Of a stretch of 64,000 nt of DNA, positions 1 through 14,986 are shown one piece after another. Where the stretch lies: NCBI GenBank assembly GCA_016190245.1, contig JACPQY010000078.1, forward strand, positions 9,821 through 73,820. The letters run 5' to 3'. How positions within the stretch are numbered: position 1 is the stretch's first letter; each line of letters opens with the position of its first letter. The notes beneath the pieces are model-generated. The model searched no databases and had not been told where the DNA came from. It saw nothing but the letters and a program-made list of their open reading frames with translations. Both the position numbers and the translations under genes were made by a program. The stretch is from Nitrospirota bacterium (GTDB lineage Bacteria; JACPQY01).

Positions 1-1
1 C

Positions 2-103
2 CTCTCGGGGGCCCTCCAGTACATGCGCCAGACCTGCGTGAGCCGGGGCTGGCAGGCCGATCCCGGCCGAAATCTGGCGGACTACCTCGCCTTGGAGAGG
101 TGA
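2..103 (+). CDS. C-terminal end of an unidentified protein (partial)
   Basis: The reading frame is open from the left edge and stops with TGA at 101-103, leaving the last 33 residues (ending ADYLALER). There is no recognisable motif. It is followed at 141 by the end of a convergent toxin gene. The fragment could be the end of any enzyme; I do not assign a function. Confidence 0.4.
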   Translation, partial: LSGALQYMRQTCVSRGWQADPGRNLADYLALER

Positions 104-140
104 GCGGGGAGGGGCGGATCCGCAAGCCGCCGCCGCGAGG

Positions 141-563
141 TCAAATCTCCGTCGAGAGGTCGAGGCGGCCGGCGAGAATCGTCGCCACCTGGGCCAGATC
201 GGTCAGGTCGGTGAGGGCCTCCCGAAGTTGAGCGGCGGTCACCGTGGCGTATTCGTGGATGATGATGTTCCGGAACTGGACGCGTTTCTTCATCTTGTCC
301 GCAAGTGCGGGTTCCAGGATCTCCGCTTCACGGAGGACTTCGAACACCTCCGCGGCCCGGCGGGGTTTGGGAAGAAGCTTCTCCGCGACAAGATGAGTTC
401 CGAGGTCAATCAGCGCCTTGGTGCCTTTCTGGAGCAGGCGCTCCAGGGCGGAACGCTGAACGAGGTCCGATTCCCAGCTCGATGGTGGAGTCGATTGGTA
501 GCGACCGAGCGCAGCAAGGGCCTCCCGGAAGACCAGCAGGCGATCAACCACGCCCGGAGCCAT
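141..563 (-). CDS. HepT-like HEPN ribonuclease toxin (DUF86 family)
   Basis: A protein of about 140 residues starting MAPGVVDRLL. The C-terminal helix carries the HEPN signature RNIIIHEYATV (R-x4-H-x-Y), the RNase active-site motif of HepT toxins. The family are small all-helical RNA-cleaving toxins neutralised by a partner minimal nucleotidyltransferase (MNT), which AMPylates the toxin tyrosine in the studied MntA/HepT pair. The start codon lies inside the end of the upstream MNT gene (20-nt overlap), as expected for a coupled toxin-antitoxin operon. The reading frame is open further upstream, but that part is the antisense-like shadow of the MNT gene. The toxin role is inferred from family and context. 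Confidence 0.8.
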   Translation of the reverse strand: MAPGVVDRLLVFREALAALGRYQSTPPSSWESDLVQRSALERLLQKGTKALIDLGTHLVAEKLLPKPRRAAEVFEVLREAEILEPALADKMKKRVQFRNIIIHEYATVTAAQLREALTDLTDLAQVATILAGRLDLSTEI

Positions 564-942
564 GCGCCATCGTCCGGAGGGAACGGAGCGCCGCGTCGAG
601 CAGGATACGCAGCTTCGGCACCCAATCCCAGTACTCCCTCTGCGTTCGCACTTCGAATTCGATCCGGGCCGCGGGGTCGCGCTCGAAGACGAGCCTCCCC
701 TTCTGAGCGGCATACGTCCACTCCAGCGGCCCGTCGTTCAGGATGAACGGGTCCACCGGGGGATCCACAACCTCCTGGAGCCGGTCCGCCCACTTCACGG
801 TCGCGTGCAGCAGGTCGGAAGGGGTCTCCCGGAGATAGAGCGCGATGTCGAGATCCGTTTCCGGATTCTCGCTTCCATAGACGTAAGCGAAGAGCACGTC
901 GGGCTCGCGGGCCAGCGCATCTGCGATCCGCTCGTCGTACAT
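544..942 (-). CDS. MNT-domain nucleotidyltransferase antitoxin (MntA-like)
   Basis: A protein of 132 residues starting MYDERIADAL. The polymerase-beta-fold motif is present as YGSENPETDLDIALYL, so the two catalytic aspartates (DLD) and the GS turn are there. The linker between GS and DxD is only five residues, while MNT proteins usually have GS-x(8-10)-D-x-D. A second acidic residue follows in the PVDPFILNDG strand. It is first in a minus-strand pair with the HepT-like gene and overlaps it by 20 nt. The likely role is antitoxin, modifying the HEPN partner. Whether the shortened loop allows catalysis is unclear. Confidence 0.75.
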   Translation of the reverse strand: MYDERIADALAREPDVLFAYVYGSENPETDLDIALYLRETPSDLLHATVKWADRLQEVVDPPVDPFILNDGPLEWTYAAQKGRLVFERDPAARIEFEVRTQREYWDWVPKLRILLDAALRSLRTMAHGSGRG

Positions 943-1009
943 CGGGTCATCGTAACACCGTGTACTGGATGGGACAATGCGGGCGGTCGGGCGGGCGCTG
1001 ACTGCTTTC

Positions 1010-1432
1010 TCAGCCGCCAGATTCCGGGCGGTGGGCGCGTCGGAGCCGGGAGGCGACGAGGGCGACGATCGCCCGCGCGTACTCGAGGGCCTTCACGGCC
1101 TCGGACCCGGTGAAGCTCTCGAACGGGACGCTGGGTGGGGGCAGGGCGTCGGGATATCGCGGAGACAGGTAGTACTTGTCCAGGATCTTCCCCGGGTCCA
1201 CGCATTCTTGGAAGGCAGGGTCAGCTTCGGCGCACTCCTGCGCGAGCTTCGCCACCGAATGAATCCATACCTGACGACGTCCCGTGCCATACAGGAAGGC
1301 CTTGAGCGCGATCTGAGCGGTTTGCTCGGCCATGAAACACACGTCCGAATGGTACTCCTTCTGGAACAGGGACTCCCCGTGACCTCCAGACTGTGCTCGG
1401 CCTGCGCGAGCCAGCTCAGGCGGGTTTTTCAA
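1010..1432 (-). CDS. HEPN domain protein, putative toxin of a second MNT/HEPN pair
   Basis: A protein of 140 residues starting MKNPPELARA. The central helices match the HEPN pattern (YHSDVCFMAEQTAQIALKAF followed by a HSVAKL motif), the fold of helical partners of minimal nucleotidyltransferases. The typical R-x4-6-H ribonuclease motif of HepT is not obvious; the tail has RAIVALVASRLRRAH instead. So this is the standalone HEPN type (PF05168-like) and its activity is less certain than that of the first copy. The start overlaps the end of the upstream MNT gene by 17 nt, so the two are translationally coupled. A repeated MNT-then-HEPN order on the same strand makes tandem modules. Confidence 0.72.
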   Translation of the reverse strand: MKNPPELARAGRAQSGGHGESLFQKEYHSDVCFMAEQTAQIALKAFLYGTGRRQVWIHSVAKLAQECAEADPAFQECVDPGKILDKYYLSPRYPDALPPPSVPFESFTGSEAVKALEYARAIVALVASRLRRAHRPESGG

Positions 1433-1739
1433 AGACGACCCGGCCGTCCGACAAGACGTTCAGGATGAAAGGGTTTTCCTCTCTCGCCATCCGCTCGAAT
1501 TCTTCCGGGGTATAGACGAACACGTCGATCGGTTCGGCCGTGCGCAAGGCGCGCGCGGCCCCCTCGAGCCGCTCGACGAACCGCTCATGGGTCCGACGAA
1601 TGACGACGAAATCCAGGTCGCTCTCGTCGTCGGTTTCCCCCCGTGCCGCCGAGCCGAACAGAATGATTTTTTCAGCGCCCGTGGCAGCCAGATCCTCGAC
1701 GGCGTGCCTGATCCGCTCATCTACCCTCATGCTGATCAT
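1416..1739 (-). CDS. MNT-domain nucleotidyltransferase, antitoxin of the second pair
   Basis: About 107 residues from MISMRVDERI; a start at 1730 (MRVDERI) is also possible. It shows the full MNT signature LFGSAARGETDDESDLDFVV (GS-x10-D-x-D) and a later IDVFVYTPEEF segment carrying the third carboxylate. It lies 5' of the HEPN gene with a 17-nt overlap. In contrast to the first MNT copy, the catalytic loop has normal length. The gene is divergent from coaBC across about 180 bp. Confidence 0.78.
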   Translation of the reverse strand: MISMRVDERIRHAVEDLAATGAEKIILFGSAARGETDDESDLDFVVIRRTHERFVERLEGAARALRTAEPIDVFVYTPEEFERMAREENPFILNVLSDGRVVFEKPA

Positions 1740-1867
1740 CTTACCGGATGCCGGTAGGGATGACCAACGGGGTCTCGCGAGAATCGCGCCCCGGGGCTGG
1801 CGGTTCTCCACGCGGGCGCTGGGCCGGGGGTCCTGCGGGTTCCCCGCGGCGGGGGGTGGGGAGGGTG

Positions 1868-1895
1868 TTGGGGGTTGCGGCCGCCGTGGTATAAT
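1868..1895 (+). promoter_or_regulatory. putative sigma70-type promoter of coaBC
   Basis: A perfect TATAAT lies at 1890-1895. A weak -35 (TTGGGG, 1868-1873) is 16 nt upstream. Predicted transcription would start near 1902, just before the GAGGAAG ribosome binding site and the ATG at 1917. Confidence 0.4.
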
Positions 1896-1916
1896 GCCCC
1901 TGAGGAAGCGGGTCGT

Positions 1917-3149
1917 ATGGGATACTTGAGCGGTCGGACGGTAGTCCTTGGCGTCAGCGGGGGGATTGCTGCGTACAAGTCGTGCGAGTTGGCGCGGCTC
2001 CTCATCGAAGCCGGGGCGGACGTTCACGTGGTGATGACGCACGGCGGGCAGAAGTTTGTCACGCCGCTCACGTTCGAGACGCTGACGGGGCACCCCGTGA
2101 TGACGGAAGTGTTCGCGCTGAGCGAATCGAAGATCTGGCACGTGGACCTGCCGGGCCGCGCGGACGCCGCAGTGATCGCGCCCGCGACGGCGAACATCGT
2201 GGGCAAGATCGCCCACGGGATCGCCGACGATCCCGTCACCACGTTTCTCATGGCCACCCGAGCCCGCGTGGTGGTGGCCCCCGCGATGAACACAGCGATG
2301 TATGAGCACCCCGCGTATCGGGAGAACGAAGCGCGAATCCGAAGCTTCGGTCATGTCATGGTCGAGCCGGGTGAGGGATTTCTGGCCTGTGGGGTCGTGG
2401 GCAAGGGCCGCATGGCGGAGCCGGAGACGATTCGTGAGCATGTGGAGCGGGTCCTTGCCCCTCAGTCGCTCGCGGGCAAGCACGTGCTGGTGACGGCTGG
2501 CCCGACGCGGGAGTACTGGGATGATGCGCGGTTCATCTCAAATCCGTCCACGGGGAAAATGGGGTTTGCACTTGCCCGTGAGGCCTGGCGCCGCGGCGCC
2601 GATGTCACGTTGGTCACCGGGCCTGTGGGCTTGCCCGATCCGGTGGGTGTGCGCACAGAGCGTGTGGAGACGGCCGATCAGATGTGGGAGCGGACGATGA
2701 CGGCGTATGCCCGAGCGGAGGTCGTTTTCATGGCGGCGGCGGTAGGGGATTTTGTGCCCGAAGCGCGCCGGCCGGGAAAGGTGCGCAAGCGAGATGCGGC
2801 CGAGGGGGAAATCTCAATTCCTCTGCGCCTCAATCGCGATATTCTCAGGGCGCTGGGGGAGAGGAAGAACGGAAAACTGTTGGTAGGGTTCGCGGCGGAG
2901 CCGGCAGGCGCCTTCGAATCGGCAGGGGCCAAGCTGCGCGAGAAGAACGTGGATTTCCTCGTGGCCAACCCGATCGATGGGCCGGATCGCGCCTTCGCGG
3001 CGGACGAGAACCGGGTGTCGCTCTTTCGGAGAGACGGCCGGCGGGAGGACTGGCCCAAGCTCACGAAGGATGATGTGGCCCGGCGATTGATCGAGGTCGT
3101 GTGCGGGACCAAAGCAGACACGACCGAAGGGGGAGGATCCCATGGCTGA
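1917..3149 (+). CDS. coaBC: bifunctional phosphopantothenoylcysteine decarboxylase/phosphopantothenate-cysteine ligase
   Basis: A 410-residue protein carrying out two steps of coenzyme A synthesis: cysteine addition to 4'-phosphopantothenate (CoaB) and FMN-dependent decarboxylation (CoaC). CoaC half: flavin loop GVSGGIAAYK near the start, active-site His in KIWHVDLPGRAD, the PAMNTAMYEHP motif and the Cys of ACGVVGKGRM. CoaB half: AGPTREYWDDARFISNPSTG (dimerisation and nucleotide motif), AAAVGDFVP and the KVRKRD lysine. Start ATG 1917 is chosen because MGYLSGRTVVLGVSGG gives the normal family N-terminus and a GAGGAAG sits 9 nt upstream. It overlaps the next small gene by 8 nt. Confidence 0.96.
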   Translation: MGYLSGRTVVLGVSGGIAAYKSCELARLLIEAGADVHVVMTHGGQKFVTPLTFETLTGHPVMTEVFALSESKIWHVDLPGRADAAVIAPATANIVGKIAHGIADDPVTTFLMATRARVVVAPAMNTAMYEHPAYRENEARIRSFGHVMVEPGEGFLACGVVGKGRMAEPETIREHVERVLAPQSLAGKHVLVTAGPTREYWDDARFISNPSTGKMGFALAREAWRRGADVTLVTGPVGLPDPVGVRTERVETADQMWERTMTAYARAEVVFMAAAVGDFVPEARRPGKVRKRDAAEGEISIPLRLNRDILRALGERKNGKLLVGFAAEPAGAFESAGAKLREKNVDFLVANPIDGPDRAFAADENRVSLFRRDGRREDWPKLTKDDVARRLIEVVCGTKADTTEGGGSHG

Positions 3150-3378
3150 GCGTATTTCAGATGCTGCATCGCGGCAGCTCGCTCCGCCGAGCGGGTTCGA
3201 CGGGAGGGAGACGCCGCGCGCGGAGAGAGAGCGGGAGCGCGTTGCGGAGCCACCGGCCGATGTCGACCGCGCCAGTCAGGCGGCGGCGGAGCGTCGGCGT
3301 GGGGACCGCGAGGCGCCGACCATCGCCGAGGTGGAGCGCGATCGGGGCCGCGGTCTGAGGGTGGACATCCTGGCGTAG
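3142..3378 (+). CDS. small highly charged hypothetical protein
   Basis: 78 residues starting MAERISDAAS and ending LRVDILA, very rich in Arg, Glu and Ala. No domain is recognised. It is supported by a strong GGGGGAGG ribosome binding site 5-6 nt before the ATG and an 8-nt overlap with coaBC, so it is probably cotranslated. The composition suggests a disordered or coiled protein. Confidence 0.55.
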   Translation: MAERISDAASRQLAPPSGFDGRETPRAERERERVAEPPADVDRASQAAAERRRGDREAPTIAEVERDRGRGLRVDILA

Positions 3379-3423
3379 AGCCCTTCGACAGGACAGACTC
3401 GAACCGCCCCTTGCTGAAGGGCT
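3379..3423. terminator. hairpin between convergent genes, possible bidirectional terminator
   Basis: AGCCCTTC (3379-3386) pairs perfectly with GAAGGGCT (3416-3423). It begins directly after the stop of the small gene and lies in the 70-bp gap to the convergent hydrogenase-like operon. There is no T-run, so intrinsic termination is uncertain. The sequence resembles a widespread CCCTTCGACAGG-type palindrome. Confidence 0.4.
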
Positions 3424-3448
3424 ACCCTCGCAGGCCGCGGATGCCGCG

Positions 3449-4225
3449 TTACCGGCGGGGAGTGTCGATCCGGCCGATCAACCGAAGTAAACCGTCCAGG
3501 ATCGTGTAGGGATGCGGCGGGCATCCGGGGACGTACAGATCCACCGGGACGACTGCTGTTGCCCCGTTGAGGACTTCGGGATGGCCCTCGTACGGTCCCC
3601 CTGAAATCGCGCAGGCGCCGACCGCGATGACGATGCGCGGTTCCGGCACGGCCTCGTAGGTCTTGCGAAGCGCGAGATCCATGTTGTGCGTGACGGGTCC
3701 CGTGATCAAGAGGCCGTCCGCATGGCGTGGCGACGCCACGAACTGGATCCCGAAGCGGCCCAGATCGAAGACGACGGTGTTGAGGACGTTCACATCCGCC
3801 TCGCAGGCGTTGCACCCGCCCGCGCTCACCTGACGGAGCTTGAGAGATCGGCCCAGGAGTTTTTTCAAGCGCGCATCGAGAGCCTCCGCGAGACGGAGGG
3901 ATTCGTCGCCGACGAGAAGGTCCTCTCTCCGGCGGGCGGCCATCCGGTGGTCCCGAGTAGCGGTGACGGCGGCCTCCGGACACGCGCGAATGCATTCCGC
4001 GCAAAACACGCAGCGACCGAGATCCACCCGGGTTTGAATCTCCTCGCTTCGGGGCGAGATGGCATCCGTCGGGCAGACCTCGGCGCAGTCCCGGCAGCCG
4101 GGCAGGCACCGGGCGCTGTCGACCGCAAGACGGCCCACGAACCGGTCGGGCAGTGCCGGCGCTTCAGCGGGGTAGGCCACGGTCCGGCGACCTTGCCCAA
4201 GCCTCGTTCGCAGCACCCGAATCAT
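3449..4225 (-). CDS. fused ferredoxin/NuoB-like small subunit of hydrogenase-related (Ehr) complex
   Basis: 258 residues from MIRVLRTRLG. Residues about 36-90 form a 2[4Fe-4S] ferredoxin domain (HyfH/HycF-like), with motifs CLPGCRDCAEVCP and CVFCAECIRACP. The first has an unusual CX3C spacing instead of CX2C. Residues about 130-258 form a NuoB/HycG-like domain with the proximal-cluster cysteines GGCNACE, GACAISGG and VPGCPPHP all kept. In standard hydrogenase-4/3 operons these are two separate genes, so this is a fusion. It is the last gene of the operon, 7 nt after the large subunit. The role is electron transfer along the peripheral arm. Confidence 0.85.
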   Translation of the reverse strand: MIRVLRTRLGQGRRTVAYPAEAPALPDRFVGRLAVDSARCLPGCRDCAEVCPTDAISPRSEEIQTRVDLGRCVFCAECIRACPEAAVTATRDHRMAARRREDLLVGDESLRLAEALDARLKKLLGRSLKLRQVSAGGCNACEADVNVLNTVVFDLGRFGIQFVASPRHADGLLITGPVTHNMDLALRKTYEAVPEPRIVIAVGACAISGGPYEGHPEVLNGATAVVPVDLYVPGCPPHPYTILDGLLRLIGRIDTPRR

Positions 4226-4232
4226 GACGGGT

Positions 4233-5804
4233 TCACAGGTCGTGCCCGCAGTAGGACAGGTTGAAGCTCTTGTTGCAGAGCGGGAAGTCGGAAATCTGCT
4301 GCCCGCGGAGGGCAAGGGCAAGGCCGGTCCAGTTGTGAAACGAGGGGTCCACGATTTTGTATCGGCTGAGGCGGCTTTGGGTGTCCGTGATCGCGACGTG
4401 GCAGATCTCTCCCCGCCAGCCTTCCACGAGGGAAATGGCGCACGAGCTTGGGGCAAGTGCACCGAGGGGGACCGGGGTCGCCCCGTCCGACAGCCGCTGG
4501 AGATGGTTTTCGATGAACTGGGCGGATTGCTCGATCTCCAACCACCGAACATGCGCGCGTGCGAACACGTCGCCTGTGGGCCACGTGTGGCACGGGGCTT
4601 GGGCATCCGCATAGAAGCCGGACGCGAACTCGCGGCGCACGTCCCGCTCGAGTCCGCAGGCTCGCGCGGCCAGGCCCACCAGGCCGAGCTCAACGGCCTG
4701 TTCACGGGACACGACGCCGGTCCCGTTGAACCGGTCCGTCACGAGATGGGACTTCCAAAGGAGCGGACCCACCTGGTGGACATCCTCCATGGCGAGCCGG
4801 AAGGCGCCCAGCATGGACGACACGCGGTCGGGCTCAAGGTCGAACCGCACGCCGCCGGGCCTGACCAAGCCGCGGCCAAAGCGATTGCCGCAGAGGGCCG
4901 CGGTGAGATTGAGAAAGTCACCGCGGAGGCGGCCGAAGTAGGCGGCGGGCGGGAGAAAACCGATGTCGTTGGCCAAGGCCCCCAGATCGCCCACATGGTT
5001 GGCGATCCGCTCAAGCTCCAGAGCGATGGCGCGGATCATGCGAGCGCGTGGCGAGGGCGTGCAGCCGCAAAGGGCTTCGATGGCCTGGGCATAGGCAGTG
5101 GCGTGGCCGATCGTCGTGTCGCCGGCGAGGGTTTCCATCAGGAGTGGGGTGCGATTGTTTGGCCCCCCGATCACGGCGCGCTCCACGCCTCGGTGTTGGA
5201 AGCCGAGGGCGATCTCGAGATGAAAGACGGTCTCGCCGTGGCATTGGAATCGGAAGTGGCCCGGTTCGATGATGCCGGCGTGGACCGGCCCGACGGCGAC
5301 TTCATGCACTTCCTCGCCCTCCACACTGAAAAAGGAACTTGCCGCTGGGAGGGCCTTGCCCCCGCTCTCATGTCGCGAGAGGCCCTCGCGACCAGGACAT
5401 GGCGGCTGGAAGCGAACGGGCTTCAGCCACGGGTGACCGAGCGGCGTGATCCCGAACTGCTCCGCGATCTCGCGCTCGAACATGTGGACTTGAGGGCACT
5501 CCGGCGTGATCGAGGAGTACTCCCCTCCGACGACGGAGGACGCAACGAGGAGGGTGGGTGGCTTGCCGTCCGCTAGAACGGCGAACAGGCGCGCCTGGTC
5601 GTTCTCGTGAGGGGCCGCGCCCCATGCATGGTCCCGAATGCGATTCGGGACTGCATACGGGGCCGCGAACAGCGCGACAACTCGGCCCCCCGAGCGCACG
5701 CGCCGAATCAGGAACTCACGGAAGTCCTGGACGGGGAGTCGTGGGATCTCATCCAGCGGGAGGACCCCCCCGTTGGGAGTGATGGTCGGGATCGTTTGGC
5801 TCAC
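4233..5804 (-). CDS. NuoCD/HyfG-like large subunit lacking NiFe-binding cysteines (Ehr type)
   Basis: 523 residues with an N-terminal NuoC-like (30 kDa) domain and a C-terminal NuoD/HycE-like domain. In [NiFe] hydrogenases the metal is held by an N-terminal RxCGxC motif and a C-terminal CxxC. Here the matching regions read ETLAGDTTIGHA and NKSFNLSYCGHDL (E. coli HycE has NKSFELCYACTDR), so all four ligands are replaced. The protein ends where the maturation protease would cut, so there is no C-terminal extension. These are traits of the Ehr family, not active hydrogenases. Residues 46-65 appear to be an inserted palindromic DNA element. It overlaps hyfF by 4 nt. Confidence 0.88.
   Translation of the reverse strand: MSQTIPTITPNGGVLPLDEIPRLPVQDFREFLIRRVRSGGRVVALFAAPYAVPNRIRDHAWGAAPHENDQARLFAVLADGKPPTLLVASSVVGGEYSSITPECPQVHMFEREIAEQFGITPLGHPWLKPVRFQPPCPGREGLSRHESGGKALPAASSFFSVEGEEVHEVAVGPVHAGIIEPGHFRFQCHGETVFHLEIALGFQHRGVERAVIGGPNNRTPLLMETLAGDTTIGHATAYAQAIEALCGCTPSPRARMIRAIALELERIANHVGDLGALANDIGFLPPAAYFGRLRGDFLNLTAALCGNRFGRGLVRPGGVRFDLEPDRVSSMLGAFRLAMEDVHQVGPLLWKSHLVTDRFNGTGVVSREQAVELGLVGLAARACGLERDVRREFASGFYADAQAPCHTWPTGDVFARAHVRWLEIEQSAQFIENHLQRLSDGATPVPLGALAPSSCAISLVEGWRGEICHVAITDTQSRLSRYKIVDPSFHNWTGLALALRGQQISDFPLCNKSFNLSYCGHDL
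5611..5667. repeat. palindromic element inserted in frame in the hyfG-like gene
   Basis: A stem-loop with arms GTCCCGAA/TTCGGGAC around a short loop, extended by CCCC...GGGG ends. It encodes about residues 46-65 of the large subunit (from FAAPYAVPNR). A diverged copy lies at 57201-57257: 37 of 47 aligned bases match, and the inner stem differs by a compensatory C-G to G-C change. The length is a multiple of three in effect, as the frame is kept. Confidence 0.65.
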
Positions 5805-7285
5805 GGCACGCCTTCAACCAGGCGGGCGGCCTGATCGAGCCAGTCTCTCAGCGGCTCGGGCATCCAAAGGCCCAGCGCGAGGAGGACGGCGAGCGGTCCG
5901 TAGACGAGGATGTTGTTCCACGCGCCCTGTTTCTGTTCTCCCGGTGCCGTCGAATTGCCGCCCCAGGCCATCGAAATCGCGTGGCGAAGCGCCCCCGTGA
6001 ACACGATGGTAGCCCCCAGGAGGAAGAGTCCGGCCGAGATGTAGAAATGGCGGTCCATCGCGCCTTTCAGGATTTGGAACTCGCTCATGAAGAGCGAGAA
6101 GGGCGCCATGCCGATGAGGGCCAGGAAGCTGCCGAAGAGCCCTACCCCCCACACGGGCGCGCGGCGGACCGTGCCGGACATTTTCTCCATCTCGTGCGTC
6201 CCGAAAATCTGGCCGAGGCGGCCGGCACAGAAGAACCCGAGCGTCTTGCACAGGGAATGGTTCAGAACGTGAAACAGGGCGGCGAACGTCCCGATCCCTC
6301 CGACGCCGAGTCCAAGGGAGATGATGCCGAGGTGCTCGACGCTGTGATACGCGAGCAGCCGCTTCAGGTCGCCCTGGAGGACGATGAAGACGGCCGCCAC
6401 GAGGATGGAGAGAACGCCGAATTGCATCAGGATCGTGTGGGCCCATCCGGAAGCGCCTGTCGCGGCCTCGACGAGCGGAACGTAGCGCAGGATGCAATAC
6501 AGGGCTGCATTGAGAAGGAAACCCGAGAACATCGCGGAAACCGGGGCGGGCGCCTGGCTGTGCGCATCGGGCAGCCAACTGTGCAAGGGTGCCAGCCCGG
6601 CCTTCGTGCCGTAGCCCACGAGCAGAAAAATGAAAGCCGCCTTCACGGGAGCAGGGCTGAGCGAGGTCGCGTGCTCGATCAGGCTCGTCCAGAGCAGGGT
6701 GTCCGTTGCGTCCTGAGCGGATCCGCGTGCCGACGCGGCCACGAGGAGGGTGCCCATGAAGGCGAACGCGACGCCCACGGAGCACATCACGAGATACTTC
6801 CACATCGCCTCCAGCGAGGCCGGGGTCCGGTGGAGGCTGATCAGAAAGGCTGTGGTCAGCGTGGTGGCCTCGAGTCCCACCCACATGAAGCCGAGGTTGT
6901 TGGAGACGAGGACGAGCGTGATCGCCCCGAGCGCCCCCAGCCACAAGGCCCCGAACTGCCGCGCGCGGGCGGGGGGAAACTCGCCCCGCTCGGCCTCGAC
7001 CTGAAAGTAGACGCGGGCAAAGACGGAGCTCAGCAGAAACACCGCCGATAGGACGGCGAGGTGGTACGCCGAGAGGGCGTCGATTCTCAGCCAGCCGCCG
7101 GCGGACGTCACCGCTCCCGCAGAGAGGACGCGAGCCGCCACCGCGGCCGCCACGATCGAGTAGGCCGCCGCGATGCCGATCACCCAGCCGAGGATCCGCC
7201 CAGGCGAGGCAAGGGCGAGACATACCACCGCCCCGACCAGCGGGATCAGAAGAAGCGAGGGGATCTGCAGGCTGTTCACCGTCAC
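5801..7285 (-). CDS. HyfF-like antiporter/NuoN-type membrane subunit
   Basis: 494 residues, about 14 hydrophobic helices. Conserved proton-channel residues of the NuoL/M/N family are visible: glutamate in WVGLEATTLTTAF, lysine in GTKAGLAPLHSWLPDAHS and histidine in LLAYHSVEHLGI. It is the second antiporter-like subunit of the Ehr operon, between HyfE and the large subunit, overlapping both neighbours by 4 nt (ATGA). In the related Hyf complex this protein sits in the membrane and is thought to take part in ion pumping. Confidence 0.87.
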   Translation of the reverse strand: MTVNSLQIPSLLLIPLVGAVVCLALASPGRILGWVIGIAAAYSIVAAAVAARVLSAGAVTSAGGWLRIDALSAYHLAVLSAVFLLSSVFARVYFQVEAERGEFPPARARQFGALWLGALGAITLVLVSNNLGFMWVGLEATTLTTAFLISLHRTPASLEAMWKYLVMCSVGVAFAFMGTLLVAASARGSAQDATDTLLWTSLIEHATSLSPAPVKAAFIFLLVGYGTKAGLAPLHSWLPDAHSQAPAPVSAMFSGFLLNAALYCILRYVPLVEAATGASGWAHTILMQFGVLSILVAAVFIVLQGDLKRLLAYHSVEHLGIISLGLGVGGIGTFAALFHVLNHSLCKTLGFFCAGRLGQIFGTHEMEKMSGTVRRAPVWGVGLFGSFLALIGMAPFSLFMSEFQILKGAMDRHFYISAGLFLLGATIVFTGALRHAISMAWGGNSTAPGEQKQGAWNNILVYGPLAVLLALGLWMPEPLRDWLDQAARLVEGVP

Positions 7286-7917
7286 CCTTTGAGCGAGTTC
7301 ATCTGGTCGGCATCGATGTGCTCGAACGCCTGGTTGATCTGCTGGAGCGCGATGCCCATCACGAACACCGCGACAAAGACGTCCATGAGGACGCCGAGCT
7401 CAATCAGGAACGGAATACCGCCGACCACAGCCACTCCGAACGTGAAGATGCCGTTTTCCAGGACCAGAAAACCGAGCACCTGCGTCAGGGCCTTCCGTCT
7501 CGCGACGACGAGAAACAGCCCTGAGAGGATCGTGAAAAGGGCCGCGGGCAGGACGAGATCCGAGACGGCCTCGCCCGGCAGGGGCAGTTGTCCCCCCAGC
7601 CAGAAGGAGGCCGCAAGCGTGGCCATGCCGATCACCATCGAGCTGGAGTAGCCGACGTAGGGTTGCAGCTCGCGCCGGACCTGCGCGTGCTTCACCGCGC
7701 GAAAGAGGAGGCGCGGGAAGACGATCCCCTTGAGGATCATGCTTCCGAGGGACAGGGCCGCGACGCGCCACGTGAGACCGTGTGGGGTGATCAGCAGCGG
7801 CATGAGCGAAAGGAGGGCGCCTTGGAGGGCGACGAGACGGATCATCCGGCTGGCGCCGAGGATGAGCAGCCCCACCAGGATCAAAGCGATCAGGATGCCG
7901 TTGACGAGTACGGGCAT
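7282..7917 (-). CDS. HyfE-like small membrane subunit
   Basis: 211 residues from MPVLVNGILI, chosen as start because it lies 4 nt after the hyfC stop; the open frame extends 10 codons further. About six membrane helices. HyfE-type proteins replace NuoK/NuoJ in hydrogenase-4-like complexes and mark this operon as hydrogenase-related and not respiratory complex I. Typical features are the LVLENGIFTFG segment (a conserved Glu in a helix, NuoK-like) and a C-terminal DVFVAVFVMGIALQQ helix. It overlaps hyfF by 4 nt. Confidence 0.82.
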   Translation of the reverse strand: MPVLVNGILIALILVGLLILGASRMIRLVALQGALLSLMPLLITPHGLTWRVAALSLGSMILKGIVFPRLLFRAVKHAQVRRELQPYVGYSSSMVIGMATLAASFWLGGQLPLPGEAVSDLVLPAALFTILSGLFLVVARRKALTQVLGFLVLENGIFTFGVAVVGGIPFLIELGVLMDVFVAVFVMGIALQQINQAFEHIDADQMNSLKG

Positions 7918-7921
7918 CGCC

Positions 7922-8818
7922 TCAGACCAGCGCGAGGACGAGCGCAAGGGAGGACATCACCCCTGCGCCGACCAGCAACTTCGGAACTCCCAGGAGCCTC
8001 AGCCTGGGAAGAGTGGATTCGACCACGCCCGTGGCGACCGCCAGAGCCGCCAGGGCGGCGACGAATGAGACGGCCTCCCACCCCTCCCCGCTTTGTGGCA
8101 GGAGCGGGCCGACGACGAGGGAACCGAGAATCCAAAGTCGGAGCGCGGAGGCATACTCGATCAGAGCCAGATCGGGCCCCCCGTGATCGAGCACCATCAC
8201 CTCGTGAATCATCGTGAGCTCGAGATGGGTGTTGGGGTCGTCCACCGGGATGCGTGCGTTCTCCGCGAGGAAGACGATCCCGAACGCGGTCGCGACCAGC
8301 GCCAGGGCCGGCGCGTGGGCGGTCCACACGTCGGGCGACAGGGTGGAGAATACGCCGTGAAGCGAGAACTGGCCGGTGATCCTCACGAGCGCCGCCAGGC
8401 CGAGCCACAGCGCGGGCTCCACGAGGGTGGAGAAGTGGACTTCGCGGCTGGCCCCCATTCCCTCGAAGCTTGAACCTGTGTCCAGCGCGGCGATGACCGT
8501 GAAGAAGCGGGAGAGGCCGAGGACGTAGGCGAAGAGGATCACATCCCCCTCGAACGACAGGGGCCCGGGCCGTCCGCCCAAGGGTGCCACGAGGCAGGCC
8601 GCGACGGTCGCGGCGAGGCCGATGAGCGGCCCCGCGCGGAAGATCCACGTCGTGGTGGCACTGTAGACGGCGCCCTTGCCGAGGAGCTTCCCGAGGTCGT
8701 AGTAGGGCTGGAGCAGAGGCGCGCCGCGCCGCCCCGCGAAGACGGCCTTCGTTTTGTTGATCAAACCCGCGAGGAGCGGGGCGAGGACGAAGGGAAGGAC
8801 TGCGTGGAAGACGACCAT
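7922..8818 (-). CDS. HyfC/HycD-like (NuoH-type) membrane subunit
   Basis: 298 residues, eight predicted helices. The N-terminal cytosolic loop INKTKAVFAGRRGAPLLQPY and the later ARIPVDDPNTHLELT are diagnostic of the NuoH/HycD family, which anchors the peripheral arm and forms the entry to the ion path. It starts 7 nt after the hyfB stop. Its presence with B, E and F subunits shows the complete membrane arm. Confidence 0.88.
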   Translation of the reverse strand: MVVFHAVLPFVLAPLLAGLINKTKAVFAGRRGAPLLQPYYDLGKLLGKGAVYSATTTWIFRAGPLIGLAATVAACLVAPLGGRPGPLSFEGDVILFAYVLGLSRFFTVIAALDTGSSFEGMGASREVHFSTLVEPALWLGLAALVRITGQFSLHGVFSTLSPDVWTAHAPALALVATAFGIVFLAENARIPVDDPNTHLELTMIHEVMVLDHGGPDLALIEYASALRLWILGSLVVGPLLPQSGEGWEAVSFVAALAALAVATGVVESTLPRLRLLGVPKLLVGAGVMSSLALVLALV

Positions 8819-8825
8819 TTCGTGC

Positions 8826-10823
8826 CTAGCGCAGTTTGAGGATGAGAAGCCCGAGGAGCGTCACCGACACGTAGAGAACGTAGAGCTGCAGCCGGCCGTG
8901 CTGAAAGCCTTTCAAGCGGCTGAAGAGTGCCAGGGCGCCTTGAAAGAGCGGGGCGTAGGCCTCTTCGGTGCAGACATCGGGCGTGTGACTCGAAAACGCG
9001 GCGGTGGGTCGGGGGAAGAGGCCCTCCGGACGGCCACCGTGCGCCCGGGTCCGGAGGAAACCCCCGAAAAAGTGCGTCAAGGGTTGAGCGAACGAGGAAG
9101 CGGTGTATTGCATCCGCGGGGTGGGCTTGGCGTAGCCGCAATCCCACGTGACGGCGCCGCGCACGGGTCGTCCCCTGAGGACGAGGAATCGCACACCGGC
9201 GAGCAGGAGCAGCAGCCCAAGTAGGATGAAGGAAGCCACGGAGATGGAGCGCGCAATGCCCTCCAAGCCGGACACTGCCGAGGAGGGCTGAGCGAAAGTA
9301 GAGGTGATCTGCTCCACCACCGGGGCCACAAGCCCGACCGCGACCGGCGCGGCGAGCCCGATGGCGAGGCACGCCCCCGATAGGATGAACATCGGAGCCT
9401 GCATCCACGTCCCCGCTTCTTTCGGAGGCTCGGCGGCTGCAGAACGCGGGGAGCCGAGAAAGACGACGCCGAACGCCTTGGCGAAGCATGCGCAGGCGAG
9501 GCCGCCGATGATCCCGAGACTCGCGAGCACCACGGCCGAGGCGACCGGCCAAGGGAGGCCGTCCACCATGCCGCGCAAGGCGCCGTAGTAGATCAACGCT
9601 TCGCTCACGAAACCGTTGAGCGGTGGCAGGCCGCAGATCGCGATGCTTCCCACGAGAAACGAGAAACCTGTCCGCGGCATCGGCTTGAGAAGCCCTCCCA
9701 GACGATCGATGTCGCGGGTGGCGGTGGATTGGACCGCGGCGCCCGCCGCGAGGAAGAGGAGCCCTTTGAAGATCGCGTGGTTGAGAATGTGCAGGAGCCC
9801 GCCCGCGAAGCCGGCGGCGGCCAGGAGCGGCCGCTCCGTCGCGATCCCCATCAGGCCCAGCCCCAATCCGAGCGCGATGATGCCGATGTTCTCGATGCTG
9901 TGGTAGGCGAGGAGCCTTTTCAGATCGTGCTGCGCCAGGGCAAATAGAACCCCGAGCACGCCGGACGTGGCGCCGAGCGCGAGGAGCGCCCAGGCCCAGG
10001 ACGGATCGGGAGGACCGAGGAAAAGCATGACGCGGAGCAACCCGTACAGTCCCGTCTTGATCATCACGCCGGACATCAGCGCGGAGACGTGACTCGGCGC
10101 GGCCGGATGCGCTTCCGGGAGCCACACATGCAGGGGCATGAACCCCGCCTTCGCTCCGAACCCGACCAGGGCCAGCACGAAGAGTGCGGAAGGATGTGCC
10201 CATCGCCCGGCGAGGCCGATCCAGGCGTCGAAATCGGTGGAGCCGGATTCCCTCCCCATGAGAAGGAAGAGGACGAGGACGAACGCCGCCCCGGCCTGGC
10301 TGGCTACGAGGTAGATCCATCCCGCGCGACGCACGGATTCCTTCTCGCTCTCCGACGTGACCAGGAAGAAGGAGGTGAGCGCCATGACCTCCCACGCCAG
10401 CAGGAAGAGCAGTGCATTTTGCGCCACGACCACGAGGGCCATGCTCAGGACCAACGCGCTGAAAAGGAATTCGCGTGCGCCGGTTCTCCCGTGGGTGTGT
10501 TCCCGCCGGCTGTAGTCGAGACTGTAGAGGGCGGAGACCGCGCTCAAACCCAGGATCCCGAGCAGGAACCACGCCGAGAGGGCGTCCAGTCCGATCGATA
10601 ACCGTCCGAACGGCATGGCCCAGTCCGTCTCGGCGGAGATCGGCCCCCCCCCGAGAAGAATCGCGATGGCCGGCAGGATGCCGAGGAGGCTCCCAGCCAC
10701 GACGCTCGCCGCTCCAAGGCGCCGTGCGGCGCCGGGCGTGCGGACGAGCAGGCAAGCCGCGCCGCCCGAAAGGATCACGAACATCCCCGCGAGGAGGAGA
10801 AAGAGAAGGAGGATTTCCGGCAT
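8826..10823 (-). CDS. HyfB/HycC-like (NuoL-type) antiporter membrane subunit
   Basis: 665 residues, strongly hydrophobic. Family motifs: LLAWEVMALTSFF (conserved Glu), GAKAGFMPLHVWLPEAH (Lys), RLLAYHSIENIGI and HILNHAIFKGLLFLAAG. The C-terminal part (residues about 560-640, WDCGYAKPTPRMQYTASSFA) is the HyfB-type extension that differs from NuoL. It is the first structural gene of the Ehr operon, 34 nt after the ArsR gene. The likely role is ion translocation linked to electron flow in the peripheral arm. Confidence 0.88.
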   Translation of the reverse strand: MPEILLLFLLLAGMFVILSGGAACLLVRTPGAARRLGAASVVAGSLLGILPAIAILLGGGPISAETDWAMPFGRLSIGLDALSAWFLLGILGLSAVSALYSLDYSRREHTHGRTGAREFLFSALVLSMALVVVAQNALLFLLAWEVMALTSFFLVTSESEKESVRRAGWIYLVASQAGAAFVLVLFLLMGRESGSTDFDAWIGLAGRWAHPSALFVLALVGFGAKAGFMPLHVWLPEAHPAAPSHVSALMSGVMIKTGLYGLLRVMLFLGPPDPSWAWALLALGATSGVLGVLFALAQHDLKRLLAYHSIENIGIIALGLGLGLMGIATERPLLAAAGFAGGLLHILNHAIFKGLLFLAAGAAVQSTATRDIDRLGGLLKPMPRTGFSFLVGSIAICGLPPLNGFVSEALIYYGALRGMVDGLPWPVASAVVLASLGIIGGLACACFAKAFGVVFLGSPRSAAAEPPKEAGTWMQAPMFILSGACLAIGLAAPVAVGLVAPVVEQITSTFAQPSSAVSGLEGIARSISVASFILLGLLLLLAGVRFLVLRGRPVRGAVTWDCGYAKPTPRMQYTASSFAQPLTHFFGGFLRTRAHGGRPEGLFPRPTAAFSSHTPDVCTEEAYAPLFQGALALFSRLKGFQHGRLQLYVLYVSVTLLGLLILKLR

Positions 10824-10857
10824 GGGTGGCGTGTCTCTTCCTTGAAGTCGAGTGGGA

Positions 10858-11205
10858 TCAGACGCGCCCGAGATCCCTGAGGAGGCTCTCGCTCTCGCGG
10901 AGCTTCTTGCGCAGGATCTCGGCGATCGGCCGCAGGACTCTGAAGATGTCCCGATCCTTGATGGCGTAGAAGACGTTGGCCTTGGCCTGGCGCGAGGTCA
11001 GGATGCCGGCCTGGCGGAGCACCGCCAGGTGCTTGGACAGGCCGGATTGCTCCACGCCCAGGACCTCGACCATCCGGCCGACGGAGGCCTCCCTCTGTTT
11101 CAGATGCTCGATGACCGCCAAGCGGACGGGATGCGCCAGCGCCCCGAGGAAATTGGCCTTGATCTTGAACACGAGGTTGGCTCCGAGGTGTCTCCTCTTG
11201 GTCAT
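10858..11205 (-). CDS. ArsR-family transcriptional regulator of the Ehr operon
   Basis: 115 residues. It has a winged helix-turn-helix: LAHPVRLAVIEHLKQREASV, then the recognition helix region EQSGLSKHLAVLRQAG and the wing ANVFYAIKD. No cysteine metal site is visible, so the ligand is unknown. It is first in the operon, 34 nt upstream of hyfB, and behind a near-consensus promoter. ArsR proteins normally repress their own operon, so this one probably controls the whole complex. Confidence 0.85.
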   Translation of the reverse strand: MTKRRHLGANLVFKIKANFLGALAHPVRLAVIEHLKQREASVGRMVEVLGVEQSGLSKHLAVLRQAGILTSRQAKANVFYAIKDRDIFRVLRPIAEILRKKLRESESLLRDLGRV

Positions 11206-11239
11206 ATGCTCATAGGATCATTTGTTCCGAGCGGTCCTC

Positions 11240-11267
11240 TTTATACCCGCGACCGTCCCCCTGTCAA
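11240..11267 (-). promoter_or_regulatory. promoter of the arsR-Ehr operon
   Basis: On the minus strand TTGACA (11262-11267) and TATAAA (11240-11245) are 16 nt apart. This is a nearly perfect sigma70-type promoter that predicts a transcript start near 11233 and a leader of about 27 nt before the ArsR ATG. Confidence 0.65.
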
Positions 11268-11370
11268 GCGCAGGTCGCCTCTGGAGTTTGCTGAGTTCCT
11301 CTCGCAGCGGAGGTCGCACGAAACTCCTCCCCTTTGTGTGGAAAGGCCGGGTGGGGTAGAGATAGCCCAC

Positions 11371-13119
11371 GTGAAAGTCCTGACGAATGCCGTCGTCCGT
11401 ACGATGGACGACTCCAATCGAGTGGCTTCTGCGGTGGCCTACGATGGGCCTCGGCTCGTGGCCGTCGGCCCGACGCAGGAGGTGCGTCGACTTGCTGGGC
11501 CCGGAGCCGAGGTGCGTGACCTCGCAGGCCGCACCGTGGTGCCCGGGTTCATCGATTCGCACCATCACCTTTCCATTGCCTTGATCTACGGAGGCGGGGT
11601 GGATTGCCGTCCCGAGGCCGCGCCGTCGATCGACGTCCTCCTCACCCGACTCGCCGAGGCGGAGAAACGCCTGCCACCGGGCGCGTGGCTTGTGGGGACG
11701 GGACACGACGAATGGAAGATTCGGGAACGGTGTCACCCCACCCGAGACGAGCTGGATTCGGTGTCCGCCCGGCGACCGATTCTCCTCATCCACGGGACGT
11801 GGCACGAGGTGGTGGCGAACTCCGCGGCGCTGGCGGCGGCGGGGATCGATGAGCGAACGCCGGAGCCTCCGTCCGGGGTGTTCAGCCGCGATCGCCGCGG
11901 CCGGCTGAACGGGCATCTCGCCGAGATGGCCGGCACCCTCGTCGAGCCGCTTGCGCGCGCGGATGCGATCGCCCGCGATCCGCATGGCCTTGCGAACCGG
12001 CTCGGCGCCTACGAGGACGTGCTCTTCTCGCTCGGGATCACCCGGATCTGCGATGCGACCGTTCCACCTTCGATCGCTGAACTCTACGCCGGCGCGCGCT
12101 GTGAGGGGAAACTCCGAATCCCCGTGGTCATGATGCCGATCGGCGAGAGGGGGCTGTTCGCTCATCCCGAGGATCGCCTGGAAGGGCCACCAACGGGGGA
12201 GGGGCCCGAGGAGCTTCGCTTCGGGCCGATGAAACTCTTCTTCGATGGGGGCACGCAGTGTGCGCTCTGCTTGAGTTTCTCCGATCTCGCCCTGAGCCTT
12301 GGCCCCGTTCTGCGCCTGGTTGCGACTCGTGGTCTTTCGTCGGGTTTGGATCTGCTTCGGCAGGTCAGGCCCTCACTCGGGCGGGATCTGCGGATTCGAT
12401 CGGGCGTGCGTTACTACGACGTGCGTCAGGGGCGGGACTTCGTGCGACGTGCGGTCGAGCGGGGTTTTGCGACCGCGATTCATGCGATCGGCAATGAGGC
12501 GGTGGGGTGGGCGATCGATGTCTTGGGCGCGGCGCGAGCGGCTCACGTGCGACAGCCTCCTCCCAGAATTGAACATGGGATGATCCTGGGGCGGGCCGAG
12601 GCCCGGCGGGCGGCCGATCAGGGAATCATGTTCGTTCCGCAGCCCTACTTTCTGGTGCAGCTCGGAGACGCCCTGTCGCACGTTCCCCTCCCGCCAAGGC
12701 TCAAGCTGTTCCCCCTTCGCACTCTGGTCGAGGAAGGCGTCGAATTAGCTGGGAGCTCGGATGGCCCGGCCGGATTCGACCCGATCGCCGCCCTTCGAGC
12801 GGCCGTCACGCGCAGGGCAGCCGACGGGACGCCGATCTCACCGGAGGAAGCCATCGAGCCGGAGGATGTCCTGCGAATGTACACGCGAGGCTCGGCTCGG
12901 GCCTGCGGGTGTTGGGATGTGACCGGCAGTCTCGAAGCCGGGAAACGGGCGGACCTGGTCGTGCTCTCGGACGACCCCTGTCGCGCAGGTTCTACTGACT
13001 GGGATTGTCTGCGCGTGGTCGAGACGATCTTGGCCGGTCGGACGGTTTTTCGCCGGGAGAGTGTCGTCGATCGGACGGAGGTGCTGAGGCTTCTGGATTG
13101 CGTCGCTCCAAGGGTGTAA
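11371..13119 (+). CDS. amidohydrolase family protein (YtcJ-like)
   Basis: 582 residues from a GTG start (VKVLTNAVVRTMDD), selected because homologs begin at this beta-strand. Family features: the metal motif VVPGFIDSHHHLS, the ELRFGPMKLFFDGG strand with its metal-bridging Lys, AIHAIGNEA, RIEHGMIL, SSDGPAGFDP, and the C-terminal GSLEAGKRADLVVLSDDP common to amidohydrolase family 3. It is a predicted metal-dependent hydrolase of amide or C-N bonds; the substrate cannot be told. It is divergent from the ArsR-Ehr operon. Confidence 0.82.
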   Translation: MKVLTNAVVRTMDDSNRVASAVAYDGPRLVAVGPTQEVRRLAGPGAEVRDLAGRTVVPGFIDSHHHLSIALIYGGGVDCRPEAAPSIDVLLTRLAEAEKRLPPGAWLVGTGHDEWKIRERCHPTRDELDSVSARRPILLIHGTWHEVVANSAALAAAGIDERTPEPPSGVFSRDRRGRLNGHLAEMAGTLVEPLARADAIARDPHGLANRLGAYEDVLFSLGITRICDATVPPSIAELYAGARCEGKLRIPVVMMPIGERGLFAHPEDRLEGPPTGEGPEELRFGPMKLFFDGGTQCALCLSFSDLALSLGPVLRLVATRGLSSGLDLLRQVRPSLGRDLRIRSGVRYYDVRQGRDFVRRAVERGFATAIHAIGNEAVGWAIDVLGAARAAHVRQPPPRIEHGMILGRAEARRAADQGIMFVPQPYFLVQLGDALSHVPLPPRLKLFPLRTLVEEGVELAGSSDGPAGFDPIAALRAAVTRRAADGTPISPEEAIEPEDVLRMYTRGSARACGCWDVTGSLEAGKRADLVVLSDDPCRAGSTDWDCLRVVETILAGRTVFRRESVVDRTEVLRLLDCVAPRV

Positions 13120-13136
13120 AAGGGCGCTCGACAACG

Positions 13137-13157
13137 GCCGGACGAATGCCGTCCGGC
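13137..13157. other. perfect hairpin between amidohydrolase and DUF486 genes
   Basis: GCCGGACG (13137-13144) and CGTCCGGC (13150-13157) pair over 8 bp with a 5-nt loop. It sits 18 nt after the amidohydrolase stop and upstream of the next ribosome binding site, with no T-run. It could be a transcript-end stabiliser or a weak terminator. Confidence 0.4.
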
Positions 13158-13177
13158 TCGACGACAGGGGGTGAGCG

Positions 13178-13525
13178 ATGAAAACGGTGCTGCTCTTGGT
13201 GGCCTCGAACGTGTTCATGACCACGGCATGGTACGGCCACCTTCGTTTCAAGTCGGCCGCGCTGTGGAGCGTGGTCCTCATAAGCTGGCTGATCGCGCTG
13301 CCCGAGTACGCCCTCCAAGTGCCGGCCAACCGGATCGGCCACGGCACCTTCACCGCGCCTCAGCTCAAGATCATCCAGGAGGTCGTGTCCATCTCGGTTT
13401 TCATCGTCTTCTGCCTGACCTACCTGCGCGAACCGATCCGCTGGAACTACCTCGTCTCGTTCGGGCTCATCGTTGCGGCCGTTGTCTTCGCCCTCTGGGA
13501 CAGACCGGGACTGCTGCTGAGGTAG
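13178..13525 (+). CDS. DMT-type small membrane protein (DUF486)
   Basis: 115 residues with four hydrophobic helices. The pattern FMTTAWYGHLRFK near the N-terminus and the ALPEYALQVPANRIGHG loop identify the DUF486 family, small integral membrane proteins related to drug/metabolite transporters, of unknown substrate. A GGGGGTGAG ribosome binding site precedes the ATG. It follows the amidohydrolase by 58 bp, which includes a hairpin. Confidence 0.8.
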   Translation: MKTVLLLVASNVFMTTAWYGHLRFKSAALWSVVLISWLIALPEYALQVPANRIGHGTFTAPQLKIIQEVVSISVFIVFCLTYLREPIRWNYLVSFGLIVAAVVFALWDRPGLLLR

Positions 13526-13627
13526 GAACGCCGGTTCGGGAGTCTTCGGTTTGGGAGAGGTATCTCGCTGCGCGAGTGCGCTGGGCTGTGTTTGAAAACC
13601 CTTCGCCGACCACCACAATTTTTGCAG

Positions 13628-13769
13628 GGGAGGGTGCTTGCACCCTCCCTCCCATAGGGCGGGTCCACCTGTCCGCCGTGGCGGAAGGACCCGCCCCTAC
13701 CACGGTCATTGCCCTGCCATCCTGGCAGGGCCACATTGCGTGGTACCTGGCCTTCCTGGGCCAAGGTAC
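13628..13769. repeat. cluster of perfect inverted repeats between convergent genes
   Basis: Four hairpins follow each other in the 298-bp gap 13526-13823: GGGAGGGTGC/GCACCCTCCC (13628-13649); GGGCGGGTCC/GGACCCGCCC (13657-13696) enclosing TCCGCC/GGCGGA (13672-13685); GCCCTGCCA-TCC-TGGCAGGGC (13711-13731); and GTACC...GGTAC around GGCC/GGGCC (13743-13769). No gene is seen here. It may terminate both convergent transcripts. Confidence 0.6.
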
Positions 13770-13823
13770 GAAGAACCGCCCTGGCCATGGTGGATCCCAT
13801 CATAGGTCCCTCTCAGAGAGGGG

Positions 13824-14975
13824 CTAGAACCAGCGGCGGAGCCAGTTCTTTTCGAAAAGGACCTTCGAAACGTGCCAGCGCCAACTCGGGGGACGCATTC
13901 TCACATCGGGGGCCGGTTCGGCGTAGAAATTCCCCGCCCCGTAGCCCGCTTTCCCATCGCCTGTTTCGATGAAGCACTCGCCGTGACCGTCGAATGAGGC
14001 CGATCGGCCCTTGCCCGTGATCGCGAGGGCGATGTTGCAGGCGACCGCTTCGGCCTGGGTGTGCGCAAAGACTCCGGCCTTGGGGAGAGGCTTTCCCATC
14101 TTGAGCGGGATGCCGGTCACGTCGCCGATGGCGAAAACGCGGTCGAAGCGTGTGGCCATGCTGTTCCGGTCCACGTCCACGTACTTGCCCTCGGCGGCAA
14201 GTCCCGCTTCGCGGATCACGCGCGGCGCCCGGTGGGGCGGGACGTAGGCGAGAAGATCGAACGGGACCTCGGCGCCGTTCTTGAACCTGAGTTTTCGGGA
14301 TGCCGTATCGACTTCGCTCATTTGGTGCTCCGGGTGGTAGGTGATCCCCTTGGCCTCGACCATCTGTCGCACCGCTCTTGAGATCTCGGGACCGGCCACG
14401 CCCATCGGTGCCGGTTCGGCTGCGTAGAGGTCGAGTTGAGTGCGCTCGCGGATCCGGCGCTTCCGGCAGTACGCCTCGATCAGCATCGCCGCCTCGTAGG
14501 GGGCGGCCGGGCATTTGTACGGTTGGCCGGCCGTGAGGATCACCAGCCGCCCGCCGGTGAAGGAGGCGAGGGCGTCGCGGAGCGTTGTTGCGCCCGGCAG
14601 GGTGTAGAAATTGTGGCCCGCCGCGGTCAGGCCCGGCACAAGCTCCGGCGCGAGCTCGGCGCCGAGGGCCACGATGAGAAAGTCGCCCGACAGGAGCCGA
14701 CCGCCCACCGTGGCTGTCCGGCGGGCAGGATCGAGGCTCTCGATCTCGCCCACGACGACTTCGATTCCCTTCCTTCCGAGGCGGGACAGCGGTCGAGAGA
14801 TCTTCTCCGGAGTCCGAGCACCCGTCATGAGCCAGAGGAGCGAGGGCGCGAACAGGTAGGAAGATTCGCGGTCCACCACCACGACGCGGTTTTCCCTCGG
14901 GAGTCGTTTCCGAACTTCGTTCGCGGCCACCAGTCCGCCGACGCCGGCACCGAGGATGAGGACGGTCTGCCCCAC
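13824..14975 (-). CDS. FAD-dependent sulfide:quinone reductase-like oxidoreductase
   Basis: 383 residues from GTG 14975, with GAGGGG as ribosome binding site. N-terminal FAD dinucleotide motif VLILGAGVGGLVAANEV; second flavin motif RVFAIGDVTGIPL; a family cysteine in TAGQPYKCPAAPYEAA. The overall pattern is that of sulfide:quinone reductase and flavocytochrome c sulfide dehydrogenase flavoproteins, which oxidise sulfide or persulfides at the membrane face. It is last in a three-gene minus-strand operon with a rhodanese-type regulator and a DsrE-like protein, supporting a role in reactive sulfur handling. Confidence 0.8.
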   Translation of the reverse strand: MGQTVLILGAGVGGLVAANEVRKRLPRENRVVVVDRESSYLFAPSLLWLMTGARTPEKISRPLSRLGRKGIEVVVGEIESLDPARRTATVGGRLLSGDFLIVALGAELAPELVPGLTAAGHNFYTLPGATTLRDALASFTGGRLVILTAGQPYKCPAAPYEAAMLIEAYCRKRRIRERTQLDLYAAEPAPMGVAGPEISRAVRQMVEAKGITYHPEHQMSEVDTASRKLRFKNGAEVPFDLLAYVPPHRAPRVIREAGLAAEGKYVDVDRNSMATRFDRVFAIGDVTGIPLKMGKPLPKAGVFAHTQAEAVACNIALAITGKGRSASFDGHGECFIETGDGKAGYGAGNFYAEPAPDVRMRPPSWRWHVSKVLFEKNWLRRWF

Positions 14976-14986
14976 GCGCCGGCCCC

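Follow-up and report, generated by a model that had tools for sequence, protein, structure and literature searches.

A group 4 hydrogenase-like Ehr operon without NiFe ligands in a Nitrospirota bacterium

Results

Organization of the ehr operon

The window, the whole 64,000-nt stretch of DNA analysed here, comes from a Nitrospirota bacterium (GenBank assembly GCA_016190245.1, contig JACPQY010000078.1). Its minus strand carries an Ehr-type operon at 3449-11205 with the gene order ArsR-B-C-E-F-L-S, in which the genes from B to S, all on the minus strand, overlap their neighbours or nearly so. Subunit identities were assigned via Pfam and NCBIfam profile matches. The first gene (10858..11205) encodes an ArsR/SmtB-type regulator (NCBIfam HTH_metalloreg, 74.5 bits), a protein without cysteine. 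The membrane arm consists of B (8826..10823), a HyfB-like antiporter-type pump subunit of 665 aa (Proton_antipo_M/HyfB; NF005086, 617 bits); C (7922..8818), a HyfC/HycD/NuoH-like membrane anchor of 298 aa (NADHdh PF00146, E 1.8e-31) with a conserved DDPNTHLELTMIHEVMVLD loop; E (7282..7917), a HyfE-like small membrane subunit (NF008556, E 8.5e-21), whose longest ORF runs over 7282-7947 from a TTG, the ATG at 7917 being the likelier start; and F (5801..7285), a HyfF-like antiporter-type pump subunit of 494 aa (NF005045, 403 bits). L (4233..5804, 523 aa) is a HycE/HyfG-like large subunit without NiFe ligands, in which the 30 kDa and 49 kDa domains are fused. S (3449..4225, with its ATG at 4225; 258 aa) joins a 2[4Fe-4S] ferredoxin domain (Fer4) to a NuoB/HycG-like small subunit (Oxidored_q6, 20 kDa).

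A complete HyfB/C/E/F-like membrane arm and a NuoB-like small subunit are united in this one operon, and no NADH module (NuoE/F/G) was found among the ORFs of window positions 1-16000. The initial annotation had listed all six subunit types at 3449-10823; the genes and their coordinates are right by ORFs and profile matches, while that extent missed the ArsR gene at the head of the operon, and the small subunit, correctly noted as present, is a HycF-HycG fusion. Elsewhere in the window, positions 141-1720 (minus strand) hold two tandem HEPN (HepT-like)/MNT nucleotidyltransferase pairs, the second HEPN judged from ORF order only, which are probably toxin-antitoxin systems, and a bacterial alpha-2-macroglobulin gene (1950 aa) lies at 41873-47725.

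The large subunit has lost the NiFe site

Alignment of L to HycE, HyfG and MBH demonstrates that all four NiFe cysteines (RxCGxC, DPCxxC) are replaced. RVCGIC of HycE aligns with TLAGDT, its two cysteines giving way to A227 and T230, and the segment AGDT (residues 227-230; 5115..5126, minus strand) stands at the place of the first CxxC. DPCYSC aligns with NLSYCG, with S517 and G520 in the cysteine positions, and NLSYCGHDL (residues 515-523; 4236..4262, minus strand) takes the place of DPCxxC up to the former cleavage point. L ends with LSYCGHDL exactly at the cleavage site of the hydrogenases and has no cleavable tail. Both the A/T and S/G replacements and the missing C-terminus had been read correctly at first sight; the HycE motif quoted for comparison, LCYACTDR, was wrong, the E. 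coli sequence being DPCYSCTDR.

The same ligand changes occur in all homologues of an 80-row alignment, whose 80 loci span Planctomycetota, Verrucomicrobiota, Myxococcota, Omnitrophota, Acidobacteriota and others, and the final 14 residues (CNKSFNLSYCGxDL) are nearly invariant across these loci. G001, the sister genome, carries them as well (67-69% identity). Because the homologues and the sister genome carry identical changes, sequencing errors at both motifs, which the initial annotation had named as a possible refutation, are ruled out.

The fold is that of the hydrogenases. By sequence, L matches E. coli HycE best among PDB entries (7z0s_E, E 7e-44), and the same chain is the best structural match of the AlphaFold model of L (pLDDT 85; Z 44.2 over 487 residues, 26% identity). 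In this model of L alone, the pocket loops 173-182 and 519-523 have pLDDT below 50 because the small subunit S is missing, and our reading of the pocket is therefore a sequence mapping rather than a geometry.

Iron-sulfur ligands, pump residues and the former active site

The proximal cluster of S has four cysteine ligands (CNAC...C...C) with hydrogenase spacing, aligned with those of HycG/HyfI, and the ferredoxin domain has eight cysteines for two clusters, the first of them with the unusual spacing CxxxCxxCxxxC. Both antiporter subunits contain the TM5 glutamate, TM7 lysine and TM12 glutamate found in HyfB and HyfF; the conserved pump residues are E145, K225, K256 and E408 in B, and those of F are E139, K228, H343 and E402. 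With all these cluster cysteines and transmembrane residues in place, the early statement that the Fe-S and ion-pump parts are intact holds.

In the pocket of L, R464 is retained as in hydrogenases, D229 and W463 are new, and D229, T230, W463, S517 and Y518 form a new lining. E180 (5265..5267, minus strand), which corresponds to the proton-relay glutamate E21 of MBH, is invariant in the 80-row core alignment, as are other pocket residues of L. The Fe-S ligands and the pocket residues rank with the best-conserved positions, which argues against a redox-dead relic whose sole role would be Mrp-like ion antiport; such a relic, for which the kinship of the membrane arm to Mrp would speak, is in our view highly improbable.

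The structure paper on the archaeal NiFe-less relative MBS (PMC7684303) provides three diagnostics: H38 and Y87 of Nqo4 for quinone, E21 of MbhL for proton delivery, and the spacing of the proximal cysteines. H38 and Y87 align with I179 and G228 of L. The proximal motif of S is CxxC; it differs from the directly neighbouring CC pair of complex I as well as from the shortened motif of MBS, in which one cysteine cannot bind (PMC7684303). The window complex thus shares with MBS and complex I the loss of the NiFe ligands within one fold; it differs from them in its proximal motif, in its retained E21 equivalent and in its lack of the quinone ligands, and complex I falls elsewhere in the tree.

One possible function is the reduction of sulfane sulfur or polysulfide, as in MBS, which is built on the same plan (PMC7684303). 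Cys188, Cys305, Cys510 and Cys519 are invariant in L of core Ehr, and about 3 kb from the window operon a sulfide-handling group (13824-16014, minus strand) encodes an FCSD/SQR-like flavoprotein, a DsrE protein and an ArsR-rhodanese fusion regulator. However, MBS requires a proximal cluster with an iron that is not ligated by cysteine and lacks the E21 equivalent (PMC7684303), whereas here four cysteines and E180 are present. Distant Ehr proteins have isoleucine at position 510 and alanine or serine at 519, and other Ehr operons do not conserve the sulfur genes, which we rejected as parts of the system. A sulfur reductase is therefore distinctly improbable. We also rejected C510/C519 as a family-wide new metal site, as both vary in distant Ehr; by the same variation, the substrate may differ among subfamilies.

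Ehr forms a clade beside the HycE/HyfG hydrogenases

A large-subunit tree was computed with the motif columns removed and its root set on MBH/Ech-type rows; it and the alignments were built without the named published EhrL sequences (Geobacter GSU0739-45). The NKSF-type large subunits all fall into a single clade (bootstrap/SH-aLRT 100/100). Its sister group is HycE/HyfG (100/98), and it sits among the four-cysteine hydrogenases, separate from complex I. The phylogeny suggested in the initial annotation as a check thus places L outside the hydrogenase clades, in a clade of its own.

The first branch of the Ehr clade (90/81) is L098 from genome G099, which keeps all four cysteines (CGVC, CYSC) and ends at CTDL without an extension; the genome has HypD. 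This protein, encoded at G099:C69:7746-9359 (operon in L244), terminates in NLCYSCTDL, with no cleavable tail, and may represent a missing link that connects Ehr with Hyc/Hyf. In L117 (G114), one cysteine of each pair is lost. The branch order within the clade suggests that the cleaved tail was lost first and the cysteines later. L178 (G128; CGAC, CYAC), on a long branch, also falls inside the Ehr clade, and since its position is unsure, the number of cysteine losses is not fixed.

Ehr or a near relative occurs in 52 of the 386 sampled genomes, across many phyla, and the branching of the clade does not follow the phyla (17 phyla, with 31 changes needed against a minimum of 16). Repeated transfer fits this pattern; paralogy and binning errors could contribute. 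One contig, G336:C31 (L243), carries the complete Ehr operon twice in tandem, each copy having an HTH-EIIA gene of its own.

Hydrogenase maturation and quinones in the host genomes

The genome of the window (G000, 85% complete) encodes complex I, Ehr and UbiA homologues, and a profile search of it found no PF00374 hydrogenase. HypD is absent from it and from the sister genome (97% complete), which has the same operon headed by an ArsR that is 85% identical. It is also missing in 23 of the 52 Ehr genomes. G257 contains a four-cysteine group 4 NiFe hydrogenase beside HypA and a HypC-radical SAM (BATS) fusion (L252:763-2513), with no HypD hit; the fusion offers a possible alternative maturation route. 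Because G257 carries such an enzyme without HypD, the absence of HypD alone does not prove that a cell has no NiFe enzyme. With all four ligands gone and HypD lacking in the host, its sister and many other carriers, we give next to no credence to the idea that the complex is still a hydrogenase with unusual ligands, for which the four-cysteine protein at the base of the clade would speak.

Another alternative is a ferredoxin:quinone oxidoreductase, in effect a ferredoxin-fed second complex I that takes quinone into the former NiFe pocket. Complex I illustrates that loss of the NiFe site can yield a quinone site, and many Ehr genomes make menaquinone: futalosine enzymes (PF02621) are found in 31 of 52, and MenD scores over the cut-off in 3 of 52. 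Against it stand I179 and G228 in place of the quinone ligands, the CxxC proximal motif and the gene content of four carriers. In G239, G257, G261 and G271, profile searches of the MAGs or assemblies found no MqnA/D, MenD or any UbiA-family protein; the UbiA search detected a family member in 14 of 14 control genomes. The full core Ehr signature is present in G257 (97% complete), G261 (100%) and G271 (87%). No complex I was found in G257 and G261, whose second 49 kDa homologue belongs to the four-cysteine NiFe group 4 hydrogenases, and Ehr is the sole 49 kDa family match in G271 and G239. Quinone is therefore not the universal Ehr acceptor, and it is very unlikely to be the acceptor in the cells of G257 and G261, in which the separate NiFe enzyme already provides for making H2 from ferredoxin. 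Since the window's host has UbiA homologues and complex I, a quinone could still act there, and the quinone reading could apply to part of the family; as an account of the window complex we consider it unlikely.

A PTS-EIIA-type regulator is the conserved neighbour

To the conserved surroundings of Ehr belongs a single gene family. In 48 of 54 loci, the 54 being those of the 80 with enough upstream sequence, B is preceded on its own strand, at a distance of at most 400 nt, by a gene for an HTH_17-PTS_EIIA_2 fusion. Examples run through L005-L084 (e.g. L009:4228-4944). The protein has about 230 aa, and its conserved GDGIAIPHVRNP motif resembles the EIIA phospho-histidine site; the regulator may sense the PEP/carbon state. 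In an independent sample, it was located on the Ehr contig in 17 of the 29 genomes with the best Ehr matches (E <= 1e-140) and in none of the 23 whose Ehr is more distant. In L005 both the regulator and B occur in duplicate, and in G024, where the gene order is altered, the regulator remains beside B. Among open-licence papers, we found none that links an EIIA-HTH regulator with a hydrogenase or Ehr.

No partner enzyme or cofactor gene is conserved, HTH-EIIA being the only family present in more than 4 of the 54 informative loci. The search for cofactor genes around orthologs, proposed in the initial annotation, thus returned only this regulator. The lack of a conserved partner makes a diffusible donor likely. 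The ferredoxin oxidoreductase POR is found in 51 of 52 Ehr genomes, including that of the window; because 353 of all 386 genomes have it, we treat this co-occurrence as a consistency check that is uninformative alone as evidence for ferredoxin.

In the lineage of the window (G000, G001) the regulator slot is held by ArsR, whose best PDB hit for the window operon is Rv0081 (6jmi, E 2.4e-15); ArsR also occurs in G086 and G128. We rejected ArsR as a general Ehr regulator, as 48 of the 54 loci carry HTH-EIIA instead. In three Kiritimatiellota operons (L033:4547-4951, L047:2605-2961, L059:4586-4894), a small conserved membrane protein fills the slot. The gene order in G086, ArsR-S-B-C-E-F-L, is what we take to be that of the M. 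tuberculosis Rv0081-Rv0088 locus. The window differs from that locus in having S last and fused to ferredoxin, and the likeness lies in the regulator and the gene order. By the title of He et al. 2011, as cited in PMC6177252, Rv0081 is the regulator in front of the Rv0082-Rv0088 genes.

These neighbours also bear on a formate-linked FDH-Ehr, in which a formate dehydrogenase would supply electrons to Ehr. Such a system has been suggested in Riflemargulisbacteria and Saganbacteria (PMC6349859), levels of Ehr subunits in Geobacter increase on formate (PMC7894505), formate hydrogenlyases are the nearest characterised relatives, and He et al. 2011, as cited in PMC6177252, describe the M. tuberculosis locus as a predicted formate hydrogenlyase. 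However, the conserved neighbours in the 80 loci include neither an FDH nor a HycB-like subunit, the window operon has none, and the proposal is silent on the acceptor. We regard it as quite unlikely here.

Discussion

The window operon is a new member of the known Ehr (energy-converting hydrogenase-related) family from a little-known lineage. Ehr has been described repeatedly, in G. sulfurreducens (GSU0739-45), comammox Nitrospira and Sulfobacillus (PMC7894505, PMC10284858, PMC4378227, PMC6349859). The complexes in these accounts share with the window a HyfB/C/E/F-like arm, a large and a small subunit and the lack of NiFe ligand motifs (PMC7894505, PMC10284858, PMC4378227, PMC6349859). Nothing essential differs, except that the window lineage has an Rv0081-like ArsR where most relatives of the same subfamily have HTH-EIIA. 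New relative to the published Ehr accounts that we compared are the EIIA regulator, the basal member with four cysteines and the hosts without quinone genes. E. coli formate hydrogenlyase and hydrogenase-4 (HycE, HyfG) form the sister clade and have the fold, pump residues and proximal cluster ligands in common with the window complex; in contrast, the latter has no NiFe cysteines, cleaved C-terminus, HycB/HyfA, HycI or Hyp genes, and its ferredoxin is fused to S.

Together, our results suggest that the window complex is probably an Ehr-type, ion-translocating and ferredoxin-linked oxidoreductase of the group 4 hydrogenase plan that works without a NiFe centre on a small non-quinone substrate, a likely reading drawn from sequence comparison. 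In the mechanistic model that we infer, the ferredoxin domain fused to S would receive electrons from reduced ferredoxin or from a comparable donor of low potential. Ferredoxin is suggested as the donor because of this fusion, the lack of a partner enzyme and, with less weight, the presence of POR in nearly all Ehr genomes. The electrons would cross the two [4Fe-4S] clusters and then the hydrogenase-type proximal [4Fe-4S] cluster to reach a substrate bound at the former NiFe position, to which E180 could deliver a proton in the rebuilt pocket. A small, protonatable molecule other than quinone is the probable substrate. Its conversion would power the pumping of ions by C together with the antiporter modules B and F, and the cycle may also run in reverse. 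In the lineage of the window, the Rv0081-like ArsR would control the operon. The original proposal that another electron donor or acceptor is coupled to ion transport is supported insofar as the conserved Fe-S ligands and pump residues point to it.

For core Ehr as a whole, it is tempting to speculate, and we do so tentatively, that it represents a distinct energy-converting enzyme class. Its pocket would have been rebuilt stepwise, with loss of the tail, then of the cysteines, and with a new aspartate in the middle of the first motif, to handle a small substrate other than quinone or H2 together with ferredoxin. In most carriers, a dedicated PTS-EIIA regulator that senses the PEP/carbon state might switch the complex.

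Two standard guesses for Ehr, H2 everywhere and quinone everywhere, are hereby removed. E180, D229, W463 and S517 are named as key residues for mutation, the four-cysteine sister protein provides an evolutionary starting point, and the dedicated regulator gives a handle on physiology. The question of how Ehr conserves energy thus becomes approachable by direct experiments.
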